Origin: Fluviicola sp.
Lineage (GTDB): Bacteria > Bacteroidota > Bacteroidia > Flavobacteriales_D > Crocinitomicaceae
Assembly (NCBI GenBank): GCA_002734065.2
Contig: NVXU02000025.1
Span: 186,001 to 250,000 of the forward strand
Direction of reading: 5' to 3'
DNA length: 64,000 bases
The notes beneath the pieces were generated by a model, which was not told where the DNA came from, made no database searches, and was given only the letters and a program-made list of their open reading frames with translations. Both the position numbers and the translations under genes were made by a program. Of the stretch, positions 29,157 through 48,460 are shown piece after piece (position 1 is the first letter of the stretch; every line of letters starts with the position of its first letter).

Positions 29157-29188
29157 GATCATAAAAATCAGCGTCATCAGCGTTCTAA
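29157..29188 (+). repeat. 5'-side AATCAT...CAGCGTTC repeat, copy upstream of polA
   Basis: The unit begins ATCATAAAAATCAGCG and ends TCATCAGCGTTC, 9 nt before the polA ATG and in the same direction. It belongs to the family seen at 32071, 32161, 38424 (inverted), 38561, 38661, 39130 and 41551. Confidence 0.85.
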
Positions 29189-29193
29189 AAAAC

Positions 29194-31998
29194 ATGATTT
29201 CAAAAGACACTCCCAAAAAACTCTTCCTCATCGATGCCTTTGCACTCATTTTTCGTGCATATTTTGCCTTTGCGAAGAACCCTAGAATAAACTCTAAAGG
29301 ACAAAACACATCGGCAGCATTTGGTTTTACCAATTCACTCATTGAGATTCTCAAGAATGAAAAACCAACACACATTGCCGTAGTTTTTGATCCTCCGGGA
29401 GGTTCGTTAACGAGAAAAGAAGATTTTCCAGAGTACAAAGCGCATCGTGATGAGACGCCAGAGGGAATTCTGTCGATGATTCAACCGATAAAAGACATCA
29501 TTTCTGCTTTCAACATTCCGATTATTCAAGTGAACGGTTATGAAGCAGACGATGTAATTGGTTGTCTTGCAAAGAAAGCTGAGAAAGAAGGATTCACAAC
29601 CTACATGATGACGCCCGATAAAGATTTTGGGCAATTGGTTTCAGAGAATATTTTCATGTATCGTCCCGGTCGTGGTGGAAAACCTGCGGAAGTTTGGGGC
29701 ATTCCAGAGATTTTAGAGAAGTTTGATGTAGAGAACGTTCTGCAAGTAATCGATGTACTTGGTTTGCAAGGAGATGCTGCCGATAATATTCCGGGAATCC
29801 CAGGAATTGGAGCAAAAACAGCGTCTAAATTATTGAAAGACTTCGGTTCTGTCGAAGGTATCATTGAAAACAGTGACCAGCTGAAAGGAAAGCAAAAAGA
29901 AAACGTTGAGAATTTCGCAGAGCAAGGTTTAATGTCGAAGAAGTTGGCAACAATCATCTTAGACATCGATGTTGAATTAAACGAAGATGAACTCATCAAA
30001 GAGGACTCTGACCCCGAGAAAATCAAAGAAGTTTTCACAGAATTGGAGTTTAGAAACCTCGCAAGAAGAGTTTTGGGAGAAGATATCGTTGTCAATACGC
30101 CTGCGGTTTCTGCTTCGGGACAAATGGATTTATTTGGAACGCAAAGTTTGGTAGAAGAACAAGAGCCAACGGAAACAGCAGAGTTTAAAACCATTGCCAC
30201 CGAAAAACCGAGTTACCATTTAATTACGCAACCCGAAGAACGCAAAGAATTACTCGACATTCTCTTGAAGCAAAAAGCAGTGTGTTTTGACACAGAAACA
30301 GATCGTCTTGACGCTTTGCATGCGAACTTAACGGGTATTTCTTTCTCTTACAAGAAAAGAGAGGCATTCTACGTTGCAACACCCAATAATTTTGAGGATG
30401 CAAAGAAAATAGTGGAAGAATTTCGTCCGTTTTTTGAATCAGAAACCATTGAAAAGATTGCGCACAACATCAAATACGATATCAAAGTCATCAATCGATA
30501 TGGTGTCAATGTAAATGCACCTCTTTTTGACACAATGATTGCTCATTATCTCATCAATCCAGATTCTAAACACGGAATGGATGTTCTTGCCGAACGTTTT
30601 TTGACTTATAAACCCGTTTCTATCGTAGAATTGATTGGCAAGAAAGGCAAAAACCAAAAAAGCATGGCAGATTTGCCACCGGAAGAAGTTTCTGATTATG
30701 CGTGCGAAGATGCCGACATCACTTTGCAACTCAAAGAAATTTTCGAACCTCAAATCAACAAAGAGCATCTCAAAGATTTATTCTACAACATGGAAATGCC
30801 TCTAGTTGATGTTCTTAAATCTATGGAGCAAGAAGGAATCACCATAGATGCTGAGGGATTGAGAAAGTATTCGGTAGAACTGGGCAATTTACTCGTGGAT
30901 TTAGAAAAGAACATCAAAGAAGAGGCTGGTGTTGATTTTAACATTGATTCTCCCAAGCAATTGGGGCAAGTTCTCTTCGAGCAAATGGAAATTTCTTCCA
31001 AAGCAAAGAAAACAAAGACGGGACAATATGCAACGGGAGAAGATGTTCTCCAGAAATTGAAACATTCGCATCCTATTATTCCGATGATTTTGGATTACCG
31101 CCAATTGCGCAAATTAAAAAACACCTACGTTGATCCTCTTCCAGAATTAATGGATGAGGTGGACGGAAGAATTCATACAAATTTCATGCAAACAGTCGCT
31201 GCAACTGGTCGTTTGAGTTCTAATAATCCAAACTTGCAGAACATTCCCATTCGTTCTGACAAAGGGAAAGAGATTAGAAAGTCCTTTATTTCTCGTGGCA
31301 ATGGTTACCAGCTGATGGCTGCCGATTATTCTCAAATAGAATTGCGAATTATTGCGGCGTTGAGTGGCGACACCAATATGATTGCGGCATTTAAAGACGG
31401 ACAGGACATTCACAAAGCAACTGCTGCAAAAGTTTTTAATGTTCCTTTAGAAGAGGTTACCCGCGACCAAAGAAGTTCTGCAAAAGCCGTCAATTTTGGT
31501 ATCATTTACGGTCAGTCTGCATTTGGTTTGGCACAAAATCTTGGTATTTCCCGAAAAGAAGCGAAGCAAATCATCGACAGTTACTTTGAGCAATATCCGA
31601 CCATTAAAAACTACATGGATGGAATGGTAAAAAGTGCACGAGAAAATGGATACGTCGAAACCATCATGAAGCGAAGAAGATACTTGAAAGACATCAATTC
31701 TGCCAATGCCGTAGTGCGTGGTTTTGCTGAAAGAAACGCCGTCAATGCTCCGATTCAAGGTTCTGCAGCAGATGTTATTAAATTGGCAATGATTGGCGTT
31801 CACGGCGCTATGAAAGAACAAGGTTTAAAATCAAAGATGTTACTTCAAGTACACGATGAATTGGTCTTCGATGTGCACGAAAGTGAAATTGAAATTCTAC
31901 AAAAACTCGTCAAACACGAAATGGAATCCGCGGTGGAATTAGCCGTTCCGTTAGATGTAGAAATGGCGGTTGCTGATAATTGGTTGGCGGCACATTGA
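29194..31998 (+). CDS. polA: DNA polymerase I
   Basis: Repair and Okazaki-fragment polymerase, 934 residues. The 5'-nuclease domain (residues 1-290) shows LIDAFALIFRAYFAF, the acidic EADDVIGCLAKKAE and DKDFGQLV, and PGIPGIGAKTASKLL (helix-hairpin-helix). The 3'-5' exonuclease domain appears intact: CFDTETDRL and HNIKYDIKV, with YACEDADITLQL. The polymerase domain has TGRLSSNNPNLQNIP, motif A MAADYSQIELRIIA (Asp near residue 710), RSSAKAVNFGIIYG and motif C LQVHDELVFDV. Length and domain order are standard. Its start lies 9 nt after a 5'-side repeat. Confidence 0.97.
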   Translation: MISKDTPKKLFLIDAFALIFRAYFAFAKNPRINSKGQNTSAAFGFTNSLIEILKNEKPTHIAVVFDPPGGSLTRKEDFPEYKAHRDETPEGILSMIQPIKDIISAFNIPIIQVNGYEADDVIGCLAKKAEKEGFTTYMMTPDKDFGQLVSENIFMYRPGRGGKPAEVWGIPEILEKFDVENVLQVIDVLGLQGDAADNIPGIPGIGAKTASKLLKDFGSVEGIIENSDQLKGKQKENVENFAEQGLMSKKLATIILDIDVELNEDELIKEDSDPEKIKEVFTELEFRNLARRVLGEDIVVNTPAVSASGQMDLFGTQSLVEEQEPTETAEFKTIATEKPSYHLITQPEERKELLDILLKQKAVCFDTETDRLDALHANLTGISFSYKKREAFYVATPNNFEDAKKIVEEFRPFFESETIEKIAHNIKYDIKVINRYGVNVNAPLFDTMIAHYLINPDSKHGMDVLAERFLTYKPVSIVELIGKKGKNQKSMADLPPEEVSDYACEDADITLQLKEIFEPQINKEHLKDLFYNMEMPLVDVLKSMEQEGITIDAEGLRKYSVELGNLLVDLEKNIKEEAGVDFNIDSPKQLGQVLFEQMEISSKAKKTKTGQYATGEDVLQKLKHSHPIIPMILDYRQLRKLKNTYVDPLPELMDEVDGRIHTNFMQTVAATGRLSSNNPNLQNIPIRSDKGKEIRKSFISRGNGYQLMAADYSQIELRIIAALSGDTNMIAAFKDGQDIHKATAAKVFNVPLEEVTRDQRSSAKAVNFGIIYGQSAFGLAQNLGISRKEAKQIIDSYFEQYPTIKNYMDGMVKSARENGYVETIMKRRRYLKDINSANAVVRGFAERNAVNAPIQGSAADVIKLAMIGVHGAMKEQGLKSKMLLQVHDELVFDVHESEIEILQKLVKHEMESAVELAVPLDVEMAVADNWLAAH

Positions 31999-32006
31999 TT
32001 TTAAAA

Positions 32007-32040
32007 GAGTGCTGGAGCATTGGAGCTTTAGATTATTGGA
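32007..32040. repeat. GAGCTTTGGA-type intergenic repeat, copy 3
   Basis: GAGTGCTGGAGCATTGGAGC followed by TTTAGATTATTGG, just after polA. Same family as 1054-1090 and 14651-14689. Confidence 0.5.
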
Positions 32041-32070
32041 TTACTTTGGGGAAAACCATATCCACATTTT

Positions 32071-32100
32071 CAATCATAATAATCAGCGTCATCAGCGTTC
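32071..32100 (+). repeat. 5'-side AATCAT...CAGCGTTC repeat, solitary copy
   Basis: CAATCATAATAATCAG then CGTCATCAGCGTTC, nearly identical to the polA-upstream copy but about 375 nt from the next gene. Confidence 0.8.
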
Positions 32101-32160
32101 TATTTTAGAGCAATACACAACCTATAAATCATATTGCGTATCTACGTCAATTTGTCTGCG

Positions 32161-32192
32161 TAAATCATAAAAATCTGCGCAATCAGCGTGCT
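32161..32192 (+). repeat. 5'-side AATCAT...CAGCG repeat, diverged copy
   Basis: TAAATCATAAAAATCTGCG followed by CAATCAGCGTGCT. It is a diverged member preceded by a CATATTGCGTATCTACG stretch. Confidence 0.65.
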
Positions 32193-37039: not shown

Positions 37040-38419
37040 ATGTCAGTACTGATAAAAAACGGACGAATAGTAACCGCTGCAGAGGATTTTATTGCGGATA
37101 TTTATGTTGAAGGTGAAAAAATCGTTGCTATCGGCAAAGACCTTACTTATTCTGCTGAAAAAGTCATTGATGCTACCGATAAATTGGTTTTCCCTGGCGG
37201 AATTGACCCTCACGTTCACTTAGATATGCCGTTTATGGGTACTTATTCCAGTGATGATTACGAGACAGGAACAAGAGCTGCTTTGCATGGAGGAACAACT
37301 TCTGTGATCGAATTTATTCTCCAAAAACAAGGAGATACATTGCATAACGCACTGAAAGAATGGCAAGATAAGTCGTTGCACAAAGCCGTTGGTGATTTTT
37401 CGTACCACATGGCGGTAACTGACTTCAATGATGAGGTTGCTAAAGAGGTTGTTCAAATGATAGAAGAAGAAGGAATCACCTCTTTCAAAACGTTCATGGC
37501 GTACAAAGGAGCATTGATGATTGATGATGGGCAGATGGTTCAACTGATGAAGGTTGTTAAAAAACACGGTGGACTTGTAACCGTACACGCAACCAACGGA
37601 GACATGATTGATTCTCTCATTGAGAAAAACCTCTCAGAAGGGAATACAAAACCAATCTATCATTATTTATCTCAACCGGAAGTGACAGAATCAGAAGCGT
37701 CAGGAAGATTTGTAGATATGCTTCATTACACAGGTTGCCCAGGTTATATTGTTCACATGACCTGCGAAGGAGCGCTAAATGCAGTTCGAAAAGCAACCAT
37801 GAGAAATCAAAAAGTCTTCGTTGAAACTTGCTCGCAATATTTAATGATTGACGCGTCACTATATGAAAGAGAAGACGGTGCAAAATGGGTGATGAGTCCT
37901 CCCCTGAGAGAAAAGAAAGACCAAGAAGCATTGTGGTCGGGAATCAATCAAGGATTAGTTCAAGTTGTAGGGACAGACCATTGTCCTTTTACCCTAGAAC
38001 AAAAAGCTATGGGAAAAGATAATTTTGCAAAGATACCAAACGGACATCCTGCCATCGAACACAGAGTGGAGTTTATGTTCTCGGAAGGGGTCAATAAAGG
38101 CAAAATATCACTGAACAAATTTGTTGAAGTATGTTCTACCAACGCAGCCAAAATATTTGGAATGTATCCGCGAAAAGGAACCATTGCGATTGGTTCGGAT
38201 GCTGACATTGTGATTTTTGACCCAAAAAAAGAGCATACAATTTCTGTTGACACGCATCACATGAATTGTGACTATTCTGGATATGAAGGTTGGAAAGTAA
38301 CAGGAAAAACAGAAACTGTTCTTTTAAGAGGTAGAATAGCAATTGAAAACGAAGAATGTCTTCTTAAAGCAGGAGATGGAAAATACATTAAAAGAGGAAA
38401 AACATCGATGATAATATAA
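37040..38419 (+). CDS. hydA: dihydropyrimidinase
   Basis: Zn-dependent amidohydrolase that opens 5,6-dihydrouracil to N-carbamoyl-beta-alanine; 459 residues. Metal-site residues: His58 and His60 in GGIDPHVHLDMPF, the Lys expected to be carboxylated (Lys150 in SFKTFMAYKG), VTVHATNG and VHMTCEG for the next His ligands, and VGTDHCPF for the catalytic Asp. The Tyr in AYKGALMID fits the substrate loop of true dihydropyrimidinases. D-hydantoinase activity often accompanies this family. It follows the NCS1 gene by 3 nt; an inverted copy of the 5'-side repeat begins 4 nt after the stop. Confidence 0.95.
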   Translation: MSVLIKNGRIVTAAEDFIADIYVEGEKIVAIGKDLTYSAEKVIDATDKLVFPGGIDPHVHLDMPFMGTYSSDDYETGTRAALHGGTTSVIEFILQKQGDTLHNALKEWQDKSLHKAVGDFSYHMAVTDFNDEVAKEVVQMIEEEGITSFKTFMAYKGALMIDDGQMVQLMKVVKKHGGLVTVHATNGDMIDSLIEKNLSEGNTKPIYHYLSQPEVTESEASGRFVDMLHYTGCPGYIVHMTCEGALNAVRKATMRNQKVFVETCSQYLMIDASLYEREDGAKWVMSPPLREKKDQEALWSGINQGLVQVVGTDHCPFTLEQKAMGKDNFAKIPNGHPAIEHRVEFMFSEGVNKGKISLNKFVEVCSTNAAKIFGMYPRKGTIAIGSDADIVIFDPKKEHTISVDTHHMNCDYSGYEGWKVTGKTETVLLRGRIAIENEECLLKAGDGKYIKRGKTSMII

Positions 38420-38423
38420 TGGA

Positions 38424-38453
38424 ACACTGATGACGCTGATTTTTATGATTAAA
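38424..38453 (-). repeat. inverted copy of the AATCAT...CAGCGTTC repeat
   Basis: The plus strand reads ACACTGATGACGCTGAT then TTTTATGATTAAATATG, the reverse complement of the family core. It is right after the dihydropyrimidinase stop and can pair with the direct copies at 38549-38590 or 38649-38690. Confidence 0.85.
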
Positions 38454-38510
38454 TATGATTTACTTTTTTGTAACTTCATAAAAAACTTAAATGAATAACA
38501 CTAATAATCA

Positions 38511-38700
38511 AATCATAAAAACCGAAGGTTTAGATCATCATTAACCCAACATCATACTTAATCATAAAAATCAGCGTCATCAGCGTTCAAAAAATAAAAA
38601 ATAACTAATAATTCATAAAAACCGTAGGTTCAAATCATAACTAACTCAACATCATATTTAATCATAAAAATCTGCGTCATCAGCGTTCAAAAAATAAAAA
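38511..38700 (+). repeat. two tandem 100-bp units of the 5'-side repeat
   Basis: Unit 1 (from 38511) and unit 2 (from 38611) have an exact 100-bp period. Each holds ATAAAAACCG-AGGTT, then AATCATAAAAATC(A/T)GCG, then TCATCAGCGTTCAAAAAATA. Unit 2 ends directly at the ATG of the GxxExxY gene. A third unit follows that gene (39088-39204). Confidence 0.9.
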
Positions 38701-39120
38701 ATGAACAACAACTACAAACATAGCGAGCTTACAGAGCAAATCATTAACGCCTTCTACCATGTGTATAATACTTTGGGTTACGGGTTTCTTGAGAAAGTAT
38801 ATGAAAACGCAATGTCAATTGAGTTAGAAAAAAGGGCGTTGTCCGTTGAGCTACAAAAAGCAATTACAGTCTATTACGATGATAAAAAGGTAGGACAATA
38901 TTTTGCAGACATGTTTATAAACAAAACTATAATTGTAGAATTAAAAGCGTCCGAATCATTAAAAAAAGAACATGAATATCAACTAATAAATTATTTAAAA
39001 GCAACAGAATCAGAAATAGGCCTTTTATTAAATTTTGGAACCACTCCCCAAGTAAAAAGAAGAGTGTTTTCAAATAGCAAGAAACGAATCAGAAGAACCG
39101 AAGGCTCAAATCATAACTAA
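38701..39120 (+). CDS. GxxExxY family protein
   Basis: Family of unknown function named for its motif, here GFLEKVY with Gly28, Glu31 and Tyr34; 139 residues. The centre has FADMFINKTIIVELKASESL, an Asp followed by Glu-x-Lys arranged like a PD-(D/E)XK nuclease core. A nuclease function is an inference made for the family, not proven. The last 11 residues (RTEGSNHN and preceding) are encoded by the start of the third repeat unit. The gene interrupts the pyrimidine cluster, between dihydropyrimidinase and beta-ureidopropionase, and has nothing evident to do with that pathway. It is flanked by direct repeats on both sides. Confidence 0.88.
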   Translation: MNNNYKHSELTEQIINAFYHVYNTLGYGFLEKVYENAMSIELEKRALSVELQKAITVYYDDKKVGQYFADMFINKTIIVELKASESLKKEHEYQLINYLKATESEIGLLLNFGTTPQVKRRVFSNSKKRIRRTEGSNHN

Positions 39121-39204
39121 CATAATTCATCATATTAAATCATAAAAATCAGTAAACTTGTGCTGAGCTTGTCGAAGCATCAGCGTTCAAAAAAAATAAA
39201 AACT
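39088..39204 (+). repeat. third repeat unit, split by an inserted short sequence
   Basis: It carries ACCGAAGGCTCAAATCATAA, AATCATAAAAATCAG and CATCAGCGTTCAAAAAAA, but the core is interrupted by about 27 nt reading AAACTTGTGCTGAGC then TTGTCGAAGCA. That insert resembles ATTGAGCTTATCGAAAT at 5997-6013. It overlaps the 3' end of the GxxExxY gene and ends just before the beta-ureidopropionase ATG. Confidence 0.85.
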
Positions 39205-40071
39205 ATGGCAAGAAAAGTAAAATCAGCACTTATCCAAATGAGCCTTCCAATGACGGAGGGAGAAGGAACTATTCAAGAAATTTGCAATGCAATGTATGAA
39301 AAGCACATTCCATACATCGAAGAAGCAGGCAAACAAGGGGTTCAAATCTTATGTTTACAAGAAATTTTTAACACTCCTTATTTCTGTCCAGGGCAAGATA
39401 ACAAGTGGTACGCATCTGCAGAAGCTGTCCCCGGACCAACAACGGCAAAACTGCAAGAAATAGCAAAGAAATACCAAATGGTAATCATTGCTCCATTGTA
39501 TGAAAGAGAACAAGCGGGTGTTTTATACAATACCGCTGCAGTGATTGACGCAGATGGCGAATATTTAGGCAAATACCGCAAGAATCACATCCCACACACA
39601 AACGGTTTTTGGGAAAAGTACTTCTTCAAACCAGGGAATTTAGGCTATCCTGTTTTCCAAACGAAATATGCGAAAATTGGTGTTTACATCTGTTACGACA
39701 GACACTTCCCAGATGGAGCAAGAGCGTTAGGACTCAACGGAGCCGAAATCGTTTACAATCCTTCAGCAACCGTTGCAGGTTTAAGCGAATACCTTTGGAA
39801 ATTAGAGCAACCTGCACACGCAGCAGCGAATGGATACTTCATGGGTTGCATCAACCGTGTTGGGGAAGAAAAACCTTGGGATTTAGGCAAGTTCTATGGT
39901 CAATCCTATTTTGTTGACCCTAGAGGACAAATTTTTGCGGAAGCTTCTCGTGATAACGATGAACTTTTAGTAGCAGAATTCGACCTTGACCTCATCGAAG
40001 AAGTTCGATCAACTTGGCAATTCTTCAGAGACAGAAGACCAGAAACGTATGGCGATTTGACGAAACTCTAA
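39205..40071 (+). CDS. beta-ureidopropionase (N-carbamoyl-beta-alanine amidohydrolase)
   Basis: Nitrilase-superfamily enzyme that hydrolyses N-carbamoyl-beta-alanine to beta-alanine, CO2 and ammonia; 288 residues from the ATG of MARKVKSALIQ. A frame extending to 39160 would translate repeat sequence and was rejected. The catalytic triad is visible: Glu53 (LCLQEIFN), Lys126 (KYRKNHIPH) and Cys163 (VYICYDRHFPDGAR). Further matches are PYFCPGQDNKWY and GYFMGCINRVGEEKPW. N-carbamoylputrescine amidase has a similar fold, but the neighbours (dihydropyrimidinase upstream, PreTA downstream) support the pyrimidine role. Confidence 0.93.
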   Translation: MARKVKSALIQMSLPMTEGEGTIQEICNAMYEKHIPYIEEAGKQGVQILCLQEIFNTPYFCPGQDNKWYASAEAVPGPTTAKLQEIAKKYQMVIIAPLYEREQAGVLYNTAAVIDADGEYLGKYRKNHIPHTNGFWEKYFFKPGNLGYPVFQTKYAKIGVYICYDRHFPDGARALGLNGAEIVYNPSATVAGLSEYLWKLEQPAHAAANGYFMGCINRVGEEKPWDLGKFYGQSYFVDPRGQIFAEASRDNDELLVAEFDLDLIEEVRSTWQFFRDRRPETYGDLTKL

Positions 40072-41550: not shown

Positions 41551-41590
41551 ATCATATTTAATCATAAAAATCAGCGTTATCAGCGTTCAA
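41551..41590 (+). repeat. 5'-side AATCAT...CAGCGTTC repeat upstream of preA
   Basis: ATCATATTTAATCATAAA then AATCAGCGTTATCAGCGTTC, ending 11 nt before the preA ATG and in the same direction as the gene. Confidence 0.85.
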
Positions 41591-41601
41591 ATAAAAAAAT
41601 T

Positions 41602-42960
41602 ATGGCAGATTTATCAATAAATTTCGCGGGAATTAAAGCTCCAAATCCATTTTGGTTGGCTTCGGCTCCTCCAACAAATTCTGGGTACCAAATCATGAAA
41701 GCATACGATGCTGGATGGGGCGGTGCCGTCTGGAAAACCTTAGGAATGCCCACAATCAACGTTTCAAGTAGATATGGAGCTACCAACTATGGCAGCAGAA
41801 GAATGGCGGGGTTTAGTAACATAGAATTAATCAGCGACAGACCTTTGGAGGACAACCTTCGTGAAATGAGAGAAGTAACAAAACGCTTCCCAAATCACGC
41901 AACGATTGCTTCTTTGATGGTGGATACCCAAGCAGAATGGAACGACATCATTAAGCAAGTAGAAGATGCCGGAGCAAAGGGAATTGAATTGAATTTTGGC
42001 TGTCCTCACGGGATGTGCGAAAGAGGAATGGGTTCTGCCGTTGGGCAAGATCCAGTTGCCTTAAAAGCGATTGTAGAATGGGTAATGGATGCTGCAAATA
42101 TTCCAGTAATCACAAAACTTTCTCCGAATATTTCTCACATCACCGATCCAGGATTGGCAGCTGTAGAAGCAAAAACAGATGCAATTTCGTTGATTAATAC
42201 GGTAAAAAGCATCGTCGGAATCGATTTAGACACCTACGCACCATATCCCGTTGTTGATGGCAAAGGAACAAACGGTGGTTATTGCGGTCCTGCGGTGAAA
42301 CCAATTGCGTTGCACATGTTGAAAGATTTGGCGCAACATCAACTAATTAAAGGAACTCCAATTAGCGGCATAGGAGGTATTGAAACTTGGCGCGATGTCG
42401 TTGAGTTTATTCTGCTAGGCGCAACTTCTATCCAAGTTTGTACAGCAGTTATGCACTACGGTTTTGGAATTGTGCGGGAAATGGAAGAAGGTCTGCACAA
42501 ATTCATGGATGATAAAGGCTATAAAACCATCTATGATTTCACAGGAAAAGCATTGCCAAATGTCACAGAATGGAAACATTTGAACCTGAAAAGCGACATG
42601 AAAGCAAAAATCAATGAGGATAAATGCATCGGTTGTGATGTCTGCTATATCGCTTGTGACGATGCTGCTCACCAAGCTATAAAATTACCAACAGAAGGGA
42701 GAATTCCTTCGATAATTGAAGAAAATTGCGTCGGTTGCAACCTTTGCTCATTGGTTTGCCCTGTTGAGAATTGCATCACAATGGAACGAGTTGATGACGG
42801 TTCAGAACACGTTACTTGGGACGAATTAACGCTCGCAGATAAAATTCCTGACACGTGGAACGATGACAGAGCTGGAGGAAAAGGGCATTTTGTTCCTGAA
42901 CCAATGGAAGCAATGGCAAACAAACGAAAAGACCGTTCTGGAGAAAGAAATAAGCAGTAA
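41602..42960 (+). CDS. preA: NAD-dependent dihydropyrimidine dehydrogenase, PreA subunit
   Basis: Catalytic FMN subunit that reduces uracil or thymine to the 5,6-dihydro form; 452 residues. The TIM barrel begins FAGIKAPNPFWLASAPPTNSG. The active-site Cys139 lies in GCPHGMCERGMG, as in DPD, and the FMN phosphate region is SGIGGIETWRDVVEFILLGA. Residues near 340-400 hold two [4Fe-4S] ferredoxin motifs, CIGCDVCYIACDD and CVGCNLCSLVCPVENC. Together with PreT this gives the same domain set as animal DPD, split in two. The start is 11 nt after a repeat copy, and the cytosine deaminase gene follows after 2 nt. Confidence 0.96.
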   Translation: MADLSINFAGIKAPNPFWLASAPPTNSGYQIMKAYDAGWGGAVWKTLGMPTINVSSRYGATNYGSRRMAGFSNIELISDRPLEDNLREMREVTKRFPNHATIASLMVDTQAEWNDIIKQVEDAGAKGIELNFGCPHGMCERGMGSAVGQDPVALKAIVEWVMDAANIPVITKLSPNISHITDPGLAAVEAKTDAISLINTVKSIVGIDLDTYAPYPVVDGKGTNGGYCGPAVKPIALHMLKDLAQHQLIKGTPISGIGGIETWRDVVEFILLGATSIQVCTAVMHYGFGIVREMEEGLHKFMDDKGYKTIYDFTGKALPNVTEWKHLNLKSDMKAKINEDKCIGCDVCYIACDDAAHQAIKLPTEGRIPSIIEENCVGCNLCSLVCPVENCITMERVDDGSEHVTWDELTLADKIPDTWNDDRAGGKGHFVPEPMEAMANKRKDRSGERNKQ

Positions 42961-48117: not shown

Positions 48118-48460
48118 ATGTTTGATTTTGAAAAATTACTAGTCTATGATAAATCTAAAAAATACAATCTTGAAGTTTTCTCATTGATGAAAAACCCAAG
48201 CGTTGATTCTGTTGCAAAAGACCAACTAAGAAGAGCCTCATTCAGTATTATGTTAAATATTGCTGAAGGCTCTGGAAGGAGAACAAATCCTGACAAAAGA
48301 AAATTTCTAGTAATTGCGAGGCTCAACTTTTGAATGTGTTGCGATTTTAGACTATTTAAAAGATACTAACGCATTAGGTTCGAGCTCCTTCCGCCAATTC
48401 TATTCTCGGCTAGAGGAAATCTCAAAAATGCTCTTCGCAATGATAAAAAAGTTGAGTTAA
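48118..48460 (+). pseudogene. four helix bundle protein (23S rRNA intervening-sequence type), frameshifted
   Basis: Reads as a four-helix-bundle protein: FEKLLVYDKSKKYNLEVF, then QLRRASFSIMLNIAEGSGRRT and NPDKRKFLVIAR. At about 48316 the frame breaks and meets TGA. The rest of the family pattern continues in another frame: GSTFECVAILDYLKDTN, then a helix ending LFAMIKKLS and TAA at 48458-48460. Loss of two bases or gain of one near GCGAGGCTC explains it. The joined product would be about 113 residues, normal for the family. In many bacteria these proteins occur within or near 23S rRNA genes, but no rRNA gene is here. A sequencing error is the main alternative to real decay. Confidence 0.85.

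Follow-up and report, generated by a model that had tools for sequence, protein, structure and literature searches.

A GxxExxY gene and its flanking inverted repeats as a candidate REPIN/RAYT-like element in Fluviicola sp.

In REPIN/RAYT systems, REP doublets are paired with Y1 tyrosine transposases of their own, and a single Pseudomonas genome can carry three RAYTs, each adjoining its own REPIN flavour (PMC3116915). In the intervening sequences of 23S rRNA, for example those of Coxiella, an S23 ORF preceded by short tandem units lies between stem-forming terminal inverted repeats, and the whole has been called a selfish element (PMC4990558). The BrickBuilt MITEs of Bacteroidota are intergenic and combine inverted-repeat ends with internal tandem units (PMC4596501). 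We describe here a locus in which a GxxExxY gene, a type annotated across many bacterial phyla without an assigned function, and the repeats around it form a single genetic unit, about 0.5-0.8 kb long. We think it somewhat probable that this unit is a REPIN/RAYT-like element working with a nuclease, not a tyrosine transposase, and that the repeats are the substrate of the nuclease. In the open-access literature that we searched, the GxxExxY name appears only in passing, in two papers (one of which notes confusion with cas4), no paper deals with PDDEXK_3 or with the repeat words, and a description of the GxxExxY-repeat element is absent.

The gene and its repeats between hydA and bup

The window, that is, the whole 64,000-nucleotide stretch of DNA that we analysed, carries the gene in an operon for pyrimidine breakdown. 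Its relevant parts are:

29157..29184, - strand: gene-free repeat copy directly upstream of polA
32072..32099, - strand: gene-free repeat copy downstream of polA
32163..32190, - strand: gene-free repeat copy downstream of polA
37040..38419, + strand: hydA, dihydropyrimidinase, left neighbour, syntenic in seven genomes
38422..38459, + strand: left inverted repeat arm, GAACACTGATGACGCTGATTTTTATGATTAAATATGAT, 95% complementary to units 38551-38588 and 38651-38688
38497..38596, + strand: tandem repeat unit 1, 100 nt, repeat family D1
38597..38696, + strand: tandem repeat unit 2, 100 nt, 85% identical to unit 1, ending 4 nt before the gene
38701..39120, + strand: GxxExxY gene, 139 aa, TIGR04256 and PF13366 / PDDEXK_3, PD-(D/E)XK fold
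39072..39201, + strand: third unit, interrupted, serving as right inverted repeat, repeat families D2-D4
39205..40071, + strand: bup, beta-ureidopropionase, right neighbour, syntenic in seven genomes
41560..41587, - strand: gene-free repeat copy at the preT-preA junction, same repeat as around the GxxExxY gene

The preliminary description had a GxxExxY gene splitting dihydropyrimidinase from beta-ureidopropionase, with one inverted copy and two tandem 100-nt units before it and a third unit after it, and we confirmed this layout. The inverted arm stands directly after the hydA stop, and the third unit overlaps the end of the GxxExxY gene and reaches the bup start. The first part of the third unit also encodes the C-terminal tail of the protein (the last dozen or so residues), as had been claimed, with the correction that a foreign insert of about 25 nt (at about 39153-39177) interrupts the unit; the tail lies outside the family profile (the TIGR04256 match ends at 119) and is a low-confidence part of the structure model. 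A foreign 25-nt word (like AAACTTGTGCTGAGCTTGTCGAAG) sits at the same point in three separate copies of this repeat, here called type A (window ~39153-39177 and, near 1500-1560, both L016 and L020). The gene-free type A copies on both sides of polA (window 29157-32190) share one orientation relative to transcription. At two places (window 38690-38703 and 41588-41604) the repeat end supplies an A-rich stretch right before a start codon, and repeat insertion may create a translation start.

The operon is syntenic in seven genomes, the window's own among them, as far as the contigs extend, and the GxxExxY gene has been gained or lost at its hydA-bup junction. The proposed repeat-bounded insertion into the operon was borne out by four relatives in which the junction is uninterrupted and only 27-61 nt long (G003, G013, G022 and G032); G000 (785 nt), G014 (about 640 nt) and G007 (516 nt) have a filled junction. 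The locus shares terminal inverted repeats and empty sites in relatives (four empty and three filled junctions) with insertion sequences and MITEs. The form in G007 is minimal, with one inverted-repeat pair (after the hydA stop come AACGCTGATGATGCAGATCTATATGATG, the gene, TAAATCATAAAAATCAGCGTG and then bup), so the 100-nt units that the window has in addition probably arose later by local duplication. The gene occupies this junction in three species and is therefore not a brand-new arrival. The operon proteins group G007 more closely with the empty G003 than with G000, which requires that the gene was gained twice at the same junction, or gained once and lost twice. Between G000 and G007 the GxxExxY protein (60% identical) has changed faster than the proteins beside it (74-95%), and the dN/dS of the gene (0.11, G000 versus G014) indicates purifying selection. 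Elsewhere in the same operon, the preT-preA junction measures 176 nt here, with its gene-free copy, versus 24-28 nt in relatives. No target-site duplication was visible at the hydA-bup site, where the junctions of the relatives are strongly diverged. An excision product was not found and movement was not observed, which counts against reading the locus as an element. We dismissed a candidate excision scar at the empty G003 junction (AAATCATAATAAAGAACG) as too short to count.

Fold and active site of the GxxExxY protein

The window protein matched TIGR04256 with 135 bits (cut-off 35) and PF13366 with 141 bits (cut-off 22). Its AF2 structure model has a PD-(D/E)XK core (pLDDT 89) with a helix-strand order that fits the superfamily, in agreement with the nuclease-like fold that had been suggested from the sequence. 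The best PDB match of the model was Cas4 SSO0001 (E 3.7e-4), and RecB/lambda-exonuclease-type enzymes were also among the best solved relatives. Across 69 proteins, E80 and K82 are invariant and H22, D70, Q94 and Y98 near-invariant; with both the fold and the active-site D...E-x-K (D70, E80-x-K82) in place, the protein is a predicted member of the PD-(D/E)XK nuclease superfamily. The residues H22, D70, E80-x-K82 and Q94-x3-Y98 also follow the motif order H, D, E-x-K, Q-x3-Y of the RecB/Cas4 group. The natural reading is a predicted nuclease that processes DNA ends. Lone PD-(D/E)XK proteins of such size are not known as transposases, which counts against the element that we propose.

Assignment to Cas4 itself was rejected: PF01930 scored 17.0 bits against a cut-off of 22.7, the Cas4-type matches from PADLOC were weak, and the gene lies inside a pyrimidine-breakdown operon, not in a cas locus. 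Plasmid or phage cargo was rejected too: the family turned up in 8 of the 72,556 plasmid records searched and in none of the 50,697 phage records.

Repeats beside GxxExxY genes and without them

The preliminary description had predicted that other GxxExxY genes would be flanked by the same unit. This failed for the second such gene of the home genome (C53), which is boxed on both sides by inverted copies of a CACAGAG-type repeat, TTACGCAGAG..CACAGAG.. (type B). The general form of the prediction held and is the stronger one, each GxxExxY gene having inverted repeats of its own whose type follows the protein clade; overall, the earlier reading of the locus is partly supported. We scored flank pairing (upstream against the reverse complement of downstream) for 86 GxxExxY genes from relatives and named genome contigs, and the median was 29, compared to 20 for 100 other ORFs at the same loci; scores of at least 34 were reached by 38% of the former and 3% of the latter (p 6e-10). 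The units take the form C-R-C-N-(GAG, AAG or GAT) and are spaced 9-11 nt, with a peak at 10 for GAG and AAG and at 9 for GAT. Their density in the flanks of 126 GxxExxY genes is seven-fold that beside other ORFs (5.6 versus 0.8 units per 300 nt, p 1e-32). Fewer than two units lie near 12% of the GxxExxY genes, and this counts against the unit reading. At one locus (L225, G031:C59) the GxxExxY gene is broken and inverted type B repeats still stand on both sides; the repeats outlive the gene.

On a tree of 98 proteins, repeat type changes 21 times versus 45.9 times when shuffled (0/200 shuffles), and GAT units are found at 28/31 window-type loci versus 3/95 other loci. The tie between the window clade and GAT was first suggested by the tree and then tested on newly fetched loci: across the phylum, those of the window clade had 5.3 GAT units per locus versus 0.43 shuffled. 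GAT units also accompany the one Fusobacteriota plasmid protein of the window clade, and GAG units are the more numerous beside a Bacteroides plasmid protein of the other clade. Gene and repeats descend together. Such co-divergence alone would not prove that the protein recognizes the repeat, as joint inheritance would also produce it.

Both repeat types are dispersed as well, in part as gene-free hairpin copies. Using pattern and BLAST searches, we located the type A core word ATCATAAAAATCTGCGTCATCAGCGTTC (up to 3 mismatches) at 23 places in the 3.49-Mb home genome, with 0 for the backwards control, and the type B repeat at 24 places genome-wide (control 0). Inverted pairs that lack a gene, such as C60:6216-6350 and C12:134555-134704, match the dispersal of REPIN/RAYT systems; a gene-free pair is a near-perfect hairpin (z -9), and the RNA of the element also folds strongly (z -6). 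Within the genus, four or more type A occurrences were seen only in the three genomes where the window-clade gene was found. Among 395 Bacteroidota genomes, at least two GAT pairs were present in 34 of 58 with a window-clade gene and in 31 of 337 without one. The enrichment held within four families (OR 7.6, p 1e-5), the co-occurrence p values being generous because gene-flanking copies were counted, a score threshold served to assign the clade, and kinship makes the genomes non-independent. One genome (G260) carries 36 GAT pairs without a window-clade gene, and some others likewise have many. A local array of eight consecutive CACAGATNACACAGAT words, with a 69-nt spacing between some of them (G044:C46:166438-166976), also stands without a window-clade gene.

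We searched the home genome for enzymes that might otherwise move such repeats and found no RVT_1 reverse transcriptase and one weak Y1_Tnp (RAYT-like) match (23.6 bits, C59), with none of these units in its flanks; an RVT_1-driven retroelement and RAYT-driven REPINs were rejected on these grounds. In the same genome, S23 genes (L284-L290; window 48142-48454) had inverted-flank scores of at least 31 at 7/8 places. Each is flanked by inverted arrays of its own short word (AAAAGACGAAAGAC, GAGTGATGAGTG, TTTTAATGTTCTAATG, AGAAGTTAAG, TAGCTTTTGGCTG and others). The S23 copy in the window (48142-48454) matches its profile in two separate pieces and may be frameshifted.

A possible mechanism, its rivals and known systems

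In the element that we propose, degenerate units of 9-11 bp form an inverted array on either side of a RecB/Cas4-like PD-(D/E)XK nuclease gene, with one nuclease gene for each repeat flavour. The nuclease would bind the array, whose units recur about once per helical turn, and would cut or trim the hairpin or DNA end formed by the inverted arrays; host repair could then, more speculatively, copy the cut end into new, mostly intergenic places. Three things lead us to infer the action on the array (binding, cutting): the pattern of one gene to one flavour, the spacing by helical turns, and the fold. That the nuclease also spreads the repeats is suggested by their co-occurrence and by the search of the genome, which turned up neither a reverse transcriptase nor a RAYT linked to the repeats.

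The GxxExxY gene could instead be a passenger captured between two copies of repeats that another agent spreads, such as a different transposase, or replication slippage together with template switching at palindromes. The many copies in genomes such as G260, which lack a window-clade gene, favor this possibility, and so do the S23 genes of the home genome, which belong to a different family and are boxed by inverted arrays built from other words, so that this nuclease is not needed for the arrangement. We nevertheless regard a passenger as rather unlikely, because the association holds in several phyla with repeat type tied to protein clade, the co-occurrence persists within families, and the home genome yielded no RVT_1 and only a weak Y1_Tnp gene with no units beside it. 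Considerably less probable is a regulatory role, in which the repeats would be hairpins that gather between operon genes as terminators, mRNA stabilisers or translation starts, and the GxxExxY gene an ordinary accessory user of them. The copies are indeed intergenic, several have an A-rich end immediately ahead of a start codon (38701, 41602), and the strong RNA folding of the element would suit such a role, yet regulation accounts neither for a family that is boxed by inverted copies across many phyla nor for a repeat type that is tied to clade. A defence or selfish nuclease, with the repeats as target or self-mark, might also be suggested by the fold, which resembles that of Cas4, and by the weak matches to Cas4 profiles. 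This we consider highly improbable, given the weakness of those matches, which had led us to reject a defence system, the near absence of the family from plasmids and phages, and the lack of a recurring partner gene at the few sites that we examined closely.

Through its tie to a specific repeat and a repeat-type/protein-clade code, GxxExxY function becomes directly testable, and scattered repeats like CTCTGTG..CCTCTGTG and ATCTGCGT..ATCTGCG would have a cause. The boxed S23 genes further hint at a wider class of elements. We put forward tentatively, as possible but less than probable, a widespread bacterial class of small non-transposase proteins that are boxed by, and spread, inverted arrays of ~7-11-bp degenerate units without a known transposase or reverse transcriptase; it would include the GxxExxY nucleases (C-R-C-N-GAG/AAG/GAT) and possibly S23 proteins (other words).

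Compared to described systems, the GxxExxY protein has the fold of Cas4 and RecB-type PD-(D/E)XK nucleases in common with them, but is smaller, does not lie in a cas operon at this site and has no conserved cysteines among its (nearly) invariant columns and thus no sign of an Fe-S cluster. The locus is not an S23 intervening sequence: those lie inside rRNA, are removed by RNase III and encode a four-helix protein, whereas the ORF here is GxxExxY, with a nuclease fold, and its elements lie between protein genes. BrickBuilt MITEs differ in their 23-nt units, their lack of a nuclease gene and their description from a single species (PMC4596501). The nearest system is REPIN/RAYT (PMC3116915), in which, likewise, each repeat flavour has a single-copy gene of nuclease type next to it, inverted pairs without a gene are scattered over intergenic DNA, and one genome holds several genes with matching flavours. 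The enzyme of REPIN/RAYT is an HUH/Y1 transposase, in contrast to the PD-(D/E)XK fold found here, and its repeats are single palindromes, in contrast to inverted arrays of ~10-bp degenerate units that box the gene on both sides. Because the defining transposase is absent, the GxxExxY element is not a member of REPIN/RAYT, though it would work alike; if its nuclease does spread the repeats, it would make a second REPIN/RAYT-like system, independent of the first and based on a different enzyme fold.
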